From: a virus | IMG/VR virus record: IMGVR_UViG_3300036861_000806 | Span: 26,955-90,954 of that record | Strand: one strand, 5' to 3' | DNA: 64,000 nt | In this document: piece after piece, positions 6,708 to 8,599 of the stretch | Layout: every line of letters begins with the position of its first letter | Position numbering within the stretch: position 1 is the stretch's first letter | The notes under the pieces: model-generated | Databases searched by the model: none | The model's input: the letters and a program-made list of their open reading frames with translations, nothing else | Told to the model about the DNA's origin: nothing | Made by a program: the position numbers and the translations under genes

Positions 6708-8599
6708 GAGTCGCTCTCCCCAAAGACAAGACCCGTGCTGCACCGACAATTGCTTGCGATGATGCCCTCTGCCATAATGAATCCGTCGACCGTCTGGAGA
6801 TCATACACATGCCCATGCCACGCGTACCGATTGAGCGCGACCACCTGATCACGCTGTATTCGCGCAGTCTCACCTACGAGGAGATCGCGCGCGAGTTGCA
6901 TACCAGCATTGCTGTCGTCTACAGTCGGTTGCGCGAGTGGGGATTGATTGGCTCGACCCCACGACACGGCGGGTCGTGGCGACGCGATATTGACGAGGCC
7001 TCGCTCATTACGCGCTACCACAGCGGGGAATCCGAGAAGGCCGTCGCGGACTCGCTGGGCATCAGTAGGACTGCGGTACGCGCTCGACTCCTTGCGGCGG
7101 GAGTGCGCCCCCGGACCCAAAGCGAATCCGAGACGCTGAAGTGGCTCGGACTCAAGCGTGATCGGGCCGCCGTCGAGCGCCAGTGCGCCAGCGCGTGGGC
7201 GGCGGCCCGCGGACGCGTCCGATCGTTGTCGGAGTTGCGCGCCTCGGCGCGAAGTCGTGCTCAGCGTCTCTCTCATGTGGGCCGTTACGAAGAGGCGATC
7301 CGCATTGCGTTGCATCGTCTCGGCATGGCCGCCACGCCGCAATATCAAGTTGGCCCCTACAATCTCGACTTGGCATTGCGCCCATCGCGCGTCGCCGTGG
7401 AGATCATCACGGCCTATCTCGACGTGGCGAAGTCCGTCTGCCCGAAGCGCATCCACTACCTGTTCGATCGGAGCTGGGCCGTTCTGATCATCTGGTGCCC
7501 AGCGAAACAGACGCCCGTGATACCGGACGCGCTCGCTCAGTACATCGTCGCCTTCACGCAGGCTGCTCGCAGCGATCCAGCCGCGCGGCGTCAGTATGGG
7601 GTGATTCGGTGTGATGGTCAGCCGGTACCCGCGTCGCGTTTCCAGCGTTACGACGGGACCCGAGTAGACGGCTTTTAATCCTCGGACGGCACGCGCAACG
7701 ATGTGCGTGTCCGGGATAAAACAATTGGGGTGGAGTGGCGGTCCCGTGATGGCACGCCCATCCGATGTCCAGGGTTCGTCGAGCCCGACCTCGACACCGT
7801 CGAGTTTTTCACAGGAAAATTCGAGTAAATCATCGTCCGTGACGATCCATACCCGCCGCGTCTCTTCACGATCAAGAAGCCCTTGATCGGCCGCCGCCTC
7901 CCAGAGCCGCTGTTGTCCTTCGTTCGTCACCGCGACCGTTTCCGTGCGGGCCAGAGTTTCCGCCCTCGCCTTCAGCTGCGCCCCCGCATATCGCTCCGTC
8001 CGCCGCGCAACATCCTCCTCACCGACCCCCTGCGCGACGAGCCGCTCACGGAATCGCTCGACCGCTGTGACCTGTCGCGAATGCAGCCCAATCACCTCGC
8101 GGAGCTCCCGCGCGAGCCAGCGGACCGGGCGCCCCTCGGCCTGCGACGCGACGACCAGCGAGCGAACGCCCTCACGCGTTGACGCGGAGATCTCCGTCAC
8201 CAGCGCGCCAGCGTGCTGATTCGCCCACGCCACGGCCGCCGGGTTGGTCCGCGCGAAGTCAACCGCGAACCCTGGAGTGCCCCGGAGCGCTTCGCGTCCA
8301 GCCTCGGCGCCGACGCCTAGGGCCGCGCCGATGACGGGCCGGATCTTCGCGCGAAGCGCTTCGGGGAGTCGGTCGAGCAGCAGCGCGGCCTCGACGCGCG
8401 AGATCTCGCCAGTCTTCAGCGCCGCTTCAAGGGCGTCGAGGTCGACTTGACCGTTCAGCGTGGCGATGGCCGAGAGGAAGGCGCGCCGGGCGGCGGGCTC
8501 CAAGCGGGCGGCGAGGCGCGTGACGAGGGGGCGGCGGGCTTTGAGGACTGACTGGGCGCCGACGGAACGGAGAAACGCGCCGACGAATTGCGGATGCAC
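6704..8599 (-). CDS. Minor head (Mu gpF/SPP1 gp7-like) protein interrupted by an intein
   Basis: 631-residue precursor. Extein residues 1-292 and 618-631 form a head-morphogenesis protein: the ARAETLARTETVAVTNEGQQRLW segment (in part ARTETVAVTNEG) and the terminal PPLHPN-CRC motif are typical of gpF/gp7 family proteins encoded after portal. The motif is split exactly at HPN|C by a 325-residue intein (Cys293 to Asn617, then Cys618 as the first C-extein residue). Splicing would give a 306-residue protein. The start lies five bases after the portal stop. The protein acts in head assembly near the portal vertex. Confidence 0.93.
   Translation of the reverse strand: MHPQFVGAFLRSVGAQSVLKARRPLVTRLAARLEPAARRAFLSAIATLNGQVDLDALEAALKTGEISRVEAALLLDRLPEALRAKIRPVIGAALGVGAEAGREALRGTPGFAVDFARTNPAAVAWANQHAGALVTEISASTREGVRSLVVASQAEGRPVRWLARELREVIGLHSRQVTAVERFRERLVAQGVGEEDVARRTERYAGAQLKARAETLARTETVAVTNEGQQRLWEAAADQGLLDREETRRVWIVTDDDLLEFSCEKLDGVEVGLDEPWTSDGRAITGPPLHPNCFIPDTHIVARAVRGLKAVYSGPVVTLETRRGYRLTITPNHPILTPRGWIAASSLREGDDVLSERVRYHGRLFRWAPDDQNGPAPIEQVVDALRADGLRHVEIGRDDLHGDARWAQCQVEIVGANLILRRGGHAETMQRNADRLFVTAHMRETLSTTSRRGAQLRQRSDASAGRRPRAGALALDGGPITLESEPLQRLGFALGPGAHSRRKESSAYRSPTDAQRVRDGLLGFPAVVARNERGLVNIASPRPAVSWGRANQSPLAQPTVDDSNAGMQLARDLLVGETARIQRDQVVALNRYAWHGHVYDLQTVDGFIMAEGIIASNCRCSTGLVFGESDS
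6749..7723 (-). other. Intein (HINT protein-splicing domain), in frame
   Basis: Residues 293-617 of the minor head precursor. Visible splicing blocks: block A CFIPDTHIVA with Cys1; block B TITPNHPILT with the TxxH histidine; block F HVYDLQTVDGFIMAEG; block G ending ASN before Cys+1. The central ~230 residues include DLHGDARWAQCQVEIV, which I recall as a conserved stretch in inteins of this insertion site, so the minus-strand frame looks truly coding throughout. No LAGLIDADG or HNH domain is present in this frame; the homing nuclease is instead on the opposite strand. Confidence 0.9.
6809..7678 (+). CDS. Predicted Vsr/PD-(D/E)xK-type homing endonuclease, antisense to the intein
   Basis: 289 residues from the ATG at 6809 (a second ATG lies at 6815). 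Residues ~8-90 hold two helix-turn-helix units (SLTYEEIARELHTSIAVVYS; SEKAVADSLGISRTAVRARL). Residues ~165-265 look like a Vsr/EDxHD-type nuclease: GMAATPQYQVGPYNLDLAL, RVAVEII, then a YLFDRSWAVLIIW strand, giving D...E catalytic candidates; the usual His after the E is absent. The gene lies wholly inside the intein DNA on the opposite strand and stops 45 bp from the intein start. It probably mobilises the intein. No strong ribosome-binding site was seen. Confidence 0.78.
   Translation: MPMPRVPIERDHLITLYSRSLTYEEIARELHTSIAVVYSRLREWGLIGSTPRHGGSWRRDIDEASLITRYHSGESEKAVADSLGISRTAVRARLLAAGVRPRTQSESETLKWLGLKRDRAAVERQCASAWAAARGRVRSLSELRASARSRAQRLSHVGRYEEAIRIALHRLGMAATPQYQVGPYNLDLALRPSRVAVEIITAYLDVAKSVCPKRIHYLFDRSWAVLIIWCPAKQTPVIPDALAQYIVAFTQAARSDPAARRQYGVIRCDGQPVPASRFQRYDGTRVDGF

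Follow-up and report, generated by a model that had tools for sequence, protein, structure and literature searches.

A putative homing endonuclease gene encoded antisense, codon for codon, to an intein in a phage head gene

Organization of the locus

The region considered here lies within a 64,000-nt stretch of viral DNA (positions 26,955 to 90,954 of IMG/VR record IMGVR_UViG_3300036861_000806), referred to below as the window. The minus strand carries a gene for a MuF/gpF-like minor head protein precursor of 631 aa (8599-6704; PF04233, 31.6 bits, above its cut-off; phrog_3517, head morphogenesis, E 5e-39). The gene is interrupted by a 325-aa intein at 7723-6749, inserted as PPLHPN|C1...ASN325|CRCSTG. 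All splicing residues are present: C1, T38-P-N-H41 of block B (TPNHP, residues 38-42, minus strand 7598-7612), block F (minus strand 6776-6817, HGHVYDLQTVDGFI, including GHVYDLQT), and block G (AEGIIASN, minus strand 6749-6772) ending in N325 and followed by Cys+1. A further segment, DLHGD (residues 107-111), lies at 7391-7405 on the minus strand.

The plus strand of the same DNA carries a gene for a 289-aa protein (6809-7678, ATG at 6809 and TAA at 7676-7678) within an ORF open from 6533. The protein has a first helix-turn-helix (HTH; residues 10-43, 6836-6937; Sigma70_r4_2, above its cut-off), a second HTH (residues 63-96, 6995-7096; HTH_23), and a DUF559/MTES_1575-type, Vsr-like nuclease domain (residues 159-230, 7283-7498). 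The gene covers intein block B, the DLHGD segment and the start of block F; the overlap with the first two was part of the original prediction and is confirmed. The two frames are exactly in codon register, plus position 1 lying opposite minus position 3, 2 opposite 2, and 3 opposite 1. The DLHGD codons are the exact complement of those for VAVEI, which includes a conserved nuclease residue, E198. Block B is the complement of YGVIR plus the next residue, YGVIR belonging to the nuclease C-terminal strand, and the antisense start codon is opposite the block F His.

It should be noted that this register is permissive for long antisense ORFs at high GC, and we did not take openness as evidence by itself. 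For the window alone it is only moderately unusual (P about 0.004 by synonymous resampling). The homologues, discussed next, make it far more than chance.

Distribution of the paired frames

A tblastn search of 50,697 phage records with the antisense protein found 46 records at E≤1 (49 at E≤10). The homologues, at 26-35% identity and E values down to 8e-19, lie antisense to MuF inteins of Gordonia, Mycobacterium, Idiomarinaceae, Aggregatibacter, and Pseudomonas phages. Those inspected are all in MuF-type head genes, and the sense intein finds the same phages. In the Idiomarinaceae phage 1N2-2, a separate HNH endonuclease gene (1-410 of the extracted locus) lies just beyond the capsid genes, in the orientation opposite to the head genes and close to the intein-bearing MuF. 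A scan of IMG/VR with the window protein alone found nothing, but a scan with the antisense profile found 281 contigs, of which 80 were kept; in all 80 an intein frame lies opposite, with GC from 0.38 to 0.73. An independent scan with the sense intein profile gave 80 loci, all of which match the antisense protein opposite, only three being visibly broken by a stop and one (L112) truncated by its contig end. As these 80 are the best matches to the window's intein, they do not measure prevalence among all MuF inteins.

Ten of ten bacterial or prophage loci (Firmicutes, Chloroflexi, Corynebacterium, Glycomyces, Scytonema, Gordonia, Micromonospora, and others) show the same arrangement, as do the intein-bearing Salmonella Jerseyvirus, E. 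coli, Klebsiella, Edwardsiella, Vibrio, and Helicobacter phage loci examined, a Chloroflexota plasmid, and about 100 phage records found by tblastn with the Jerseyvirus version. About 200 loci from very different phages and prophages (GC 0.36-0.73) share it, although many of the loci are related and the counts are not independent. Except for a free-standing copy in an Acinetobacter phage, described below, none of the phage or plasmid records inspected had the antisense gene annotated. Different inteins occupy the same MuF insertion site in closely related Gordonia phages, and the one in Gordonia phage Nordenberg lacks both the DxHGD segment and the antisense gene, in comparison with loci L001, L095, and L097 of our set. 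Extra intein-profile matches suggest a possible second intein in the same or next gene at two loci (L150, 3000-4763, and L045).

The original prediction could have failed if homologous inteins had antisense frames full of stops and the antisense protein had no independent homologues. This was tested and is not the case: besides the two scans, a free-standing homologue exists, and the nuclease half is homologous to ordinary DUF559 proteins. A hit in the crAss-like phage cr126_1, in contrast, was not supported by the profile as a stand-alone relative. A large actinobacterial ORF (L236) has many repeated HTH units resembling the DNA-binding arms of the antisense protein.

Constraint on the two reading frames

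Could the antisense ORF be a by-product of GC-rich coding in a permissive register and of sense-strand conservation? We kept each sense protein fixed and resampled synonymous codons by the local extein usage. About 698 antisense stops are expected in 90 loci with retained antisense ORFs, and none is seen. (One locus, L073, was left out because of a stop just after the assumed start, which was probably wrong, and another, L068, was tested only up to its stop.) In nearly all loci below 50% GC no resampled version was open in 500 trials, and loci at GC 0.36-0.45 are open, with 10-25 stops expected in most of them. Profiles trained only on seven named phages score the observed antisense proteins of 44 loci at a median of 214 bits, against 49 for the resampled versions, and every locus beats all 60 of its nulls. 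The reverse test, with the antisense protein fixed, gives 139 against 50 bits for the sense intein, again in 44/44 loci. The by-product explanation is refuted by these results, together with the substitution patterns and the free-standing homologue below.

The original prediction held that both strands are under selection. This is true but uneven. The sense signal is strong in residues 16-66 (above all nulls in 43/43 loci), clear in residues 80-128, which include DLHGD (37/43), and weak in residues 129-285 (10/43). The antisense strand is constrained almost throughout: the signal is strong in the second HTH (43/43), the helical linker (41/43) and the nuclease (43/43), and weaker in the C-terminal part opposite block B (24/43). 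Sense conservation explains much of the antisense C-terminal motif (VIRG opposite TPNHP) but not the HTH or nuclease regions.

In eight of eight close pairs the antisense amino-acid changes are below all 400 simulations (window versus locus L009: 107 against 168±6), while sense changes are closer to random (159 against 167±6). In most pairs the differences pile up at sense position 1, which is antisense position 3, whereas the N-exteins of the same pairs show the normal sense pattern. These results bear on the possibility that a nuclease gene was once inserted backwards into an intein and is now a decaying relic, only the sense frame being of consequence. A few copies (L068, L118, L136, L185) do carry antisense stops, in each case with the sense intein frame still open, as expected for homing genes decaying after fixation but also for loss of function, and the sense middle region looks like read-through of reversed coding DNA. 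Antisense purifying selection in every close pair tested, and a Shine-Dalgarno sequence kept by codon choice, make the relic view very unlikely.

Predicted structures

AlphaFold2 gives the antisense protein a mean pLDDT of 88.5, with helices at residues 10-18, 23-29, and 34-43 in the first HTH and at 63-71, 76-83, and 87-96 in the second. The top Foldseek match is the catalytic domain of the homing endonuclease I-Bth0305I (3R3P, probability 1.00, TMt 0.58), followed by Vsr (1VSR, probability 1.00) and 3HRL (TMt 0.73), the last also found by sequence profile. The E values are weak (7e-3) though the probabilities are 1.00. In 58 sequences E161 and Q178 are 97% and D187 and E198 100% conserved. 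The EDxHD signature is only partly matched; its His/Asp is not clearly identified: residue 205 is His in 60% of sequences and Asp in the window.

The sense intein model has well-formed Hint parts (residues 1-66 and 290-325, mostly at pLDDT >90), a moderately confident segment around DLHGD (83-123), and a disordered middle (about 127-267, pLDDT mostly below 50). Residues 127-285 show no confident fold or nuclease family match. The model matches solved inteins (Mtu RecA intein, E 7e-4). It remains conceivable that the insert no longer splices and is tolerated in frame, like the ShiLan domain, as its scores are slightly below the curated cut-offs (PF14890, 29.3 vs. 35.8 bits, E 9e-7; TIGR01445, 23.1 vs. 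24.5 bits, E 1e-4), and the penultimate residue in the window is Ser instead of the usual His. However, all nucleophiles and block B, F, and G residues are conserved across 51 sequences (C1, H41, and N325 invariant, T38 at least 90%), and the sense blocks are selected beyond what the antisense implies. We consider loss of splicing unlikely.

Translation signals of the antisense gene

A Shine-Dalgarno-like GGAG (6796-6799, plus strand) lies 9 nt upstream of ATG 6809, in the complement of block F. In 105 of 138 distinct loci with a start, the antisense start is exactly 60 nt inside the intein's C-terminus, and 108 of 138 have an SD-like core 4-16 nt upstream. The block F Leu codon, whose complement supplies the GAG of the SD, is CTC in 105 of 115 cases, where 32 are expected from extein usage. 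We found no convincing promoter: TATAAT-like sites in the intein tail are only weakly enriched (56 versus 38 expected). Antisense transcription of a head gene is therefore an inference; transcription before the late genes are on would avoid collision.

Empty sites and a free-standing relative

Probes made by joining the flanks of the Gordonia and Salmonella inserts match many phages uninterrupted (Geodirt, 97.9% over 700 nt in one piece) and others interrupted at the same point. E. coli phages KMB36 and GZMU_E2010 carry two different inteins of this family at two different MuF sites, each phage being empty at the other's site in very similar MuF genes; KMB36 shows a stop within the antisense match. 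Most inserts sit before C[RK]C in MuF. Others lie at other MuF sites and in Phage_min_cap2, RtcB, a prohead protease, and a dCMP deaminase. The last is Rctr197k_003 of Virus Rctr197k (KX853510; 616-1968 of the extracted locus), annotated as a head morphogenesis protein, but the exteins are a dCMP/cytidine deaminase, and the intein with antisense nuclease interrupts the PCxxC zinc motif.

Acinetobacter phage vB_AbaM_IME285 (MH853786; 455-2055 of the extracted locus), and also BUCT629 and P1068, carries a 297-aa relative, 35.5% identical (E 9e-34) to the antisense ORF of a Vibrio phage, with no intein opposite. The opposite codon-phase frame has 12 stops in 297 codons. The gene converges on, and overlaps, the 3′-end of an intein-free MuF gene. 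This is an independent homologue, a natural control for the overlap and a plausible ancestral form, although it may instead be an intron-free homing gene.

A mobile intein with a putative antisense endonuclease

We prefer the view, with a probability of roughly 0.88, that this is a mobile intein whose homing endonuclease is encoded antisense. In this view the minus-strand gene is translated into a MuF precursor, and the Hint domain, made of the two ends of the insert, splices itself out so that the head protein is restored. The middle of the insert, read in this direction, is mostly a disordered linker. Read from the ATG opposite block F, the same DNA gives an HTH-HTH-EDxHD/Vsr-like nuclease, which would bind and cut intein-free alleles during co-infection, and repair copies the whole insert in. 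The arrangement, the reality of both proteins, and the selection on both strands are as good as sequence evidence can make them, whereas splicing, antisense transcription, cleavage, and homing are inferred, the homing function being strongly supported by anatomy, distribution, and empty alleles but not demonstrated. As to origin, we infer that a free-standing nuclease gene lying antisense to MuF, as in IME285, became embedded in a mini-intein in reverse orientation.

The antisense protein may be real and conserved and yet not be a homing endonuclease, but, for example, a regulator, or a nuclease that excludes competing phages or prophages. Its HTH arms are shared with regulators, and in most lineages the gene stays intact, which could mean a function beyond homing. 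Against this are the nuclease core nearest to a homing endonuclease, the strict association with a mobile insert that has exact empty alleles, insertion at several sites and host genes, and the free-standing copy beside an intein-free target gene. We regard this alternative as unlikely.

Relation to known systems

I-Bth0305I and the EDxHD family (PMC3943268), Vsr, and DUF559 share the predicted nuclease fold, joined to HTH DNA-binding arms, phage-borne, and linked to a mobile insertion, but here the core is encoded antisense inside an intein and in register with it, rather than inside an intron or alone. Canonical inteins with an in-frame endonuclease domain share the Hint blocks, a conserved insertion site in a conserved host gene, and occupied and empty alleles, but here the endonuclease is a separate protein from the other strand. 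Out-of-frame HNH insertions (PMC11855218) also hide an endonuclease in another frame of a mobile phage insertion with no stops in the host frame; they are on the same strand, without a splicing domain or a detected Shine-Dalgarno, and the nuclease is different. Antisense homing genes in nuclear rDNA group I introns (PMC9548176) are likewise oriented against the host gene inside a self-splicing element. There, the element is an RNA intron, and the homing gene is an extra insertion in a peripheral segment that does not double as splicing-protein code.

The original prediction took the full antisense arrangement to be undescribed, which could not be confirmed. We found no paper describing antisense endonucleases in inteins, in searches that covered no preprints and few subscription journals. 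Jerseyvirus inteins are known (PMC8425127), without mention of an antisense gene in the parts consulted. A survey of actinobacteriophage inteins with "non-canonical architecture" (bioRxiv 10.1101/2025.01.02.630785) would probably include the Gordonia phage MuF inteins studied here and may already report overlapping or antisense endonucleases.

Concluding remarks

It is about as likely as not that these loci represent a widespread, ancient class of mobile inteins in which the splicing element and its homing endonuclease are encoded by the two strands of the same codons, including a nuclease catalytic motif opposite an intein motif (VAVE/DLHGD) and a ribosome-binding site inside block F. This would be among the best-supported long antisense gene overlaps known, and a homing strategy not previously described for inteins. 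Long antisense overlaps in which both proteins are constrained are rarely demonstrated, and homing endonucleases are thought to sit in frame inside inteins. Here hundreds of phages, among them isolates of Gordonia and Salmonella, carry a conserved antisense pair that the inspected annotations miss. The arrangement explains how inteins that look endonuclease-less could still move. It gives a large natural data set on how two proteins can share codons, and shows that annotation rules which discard antisense ORFs hide real genes.
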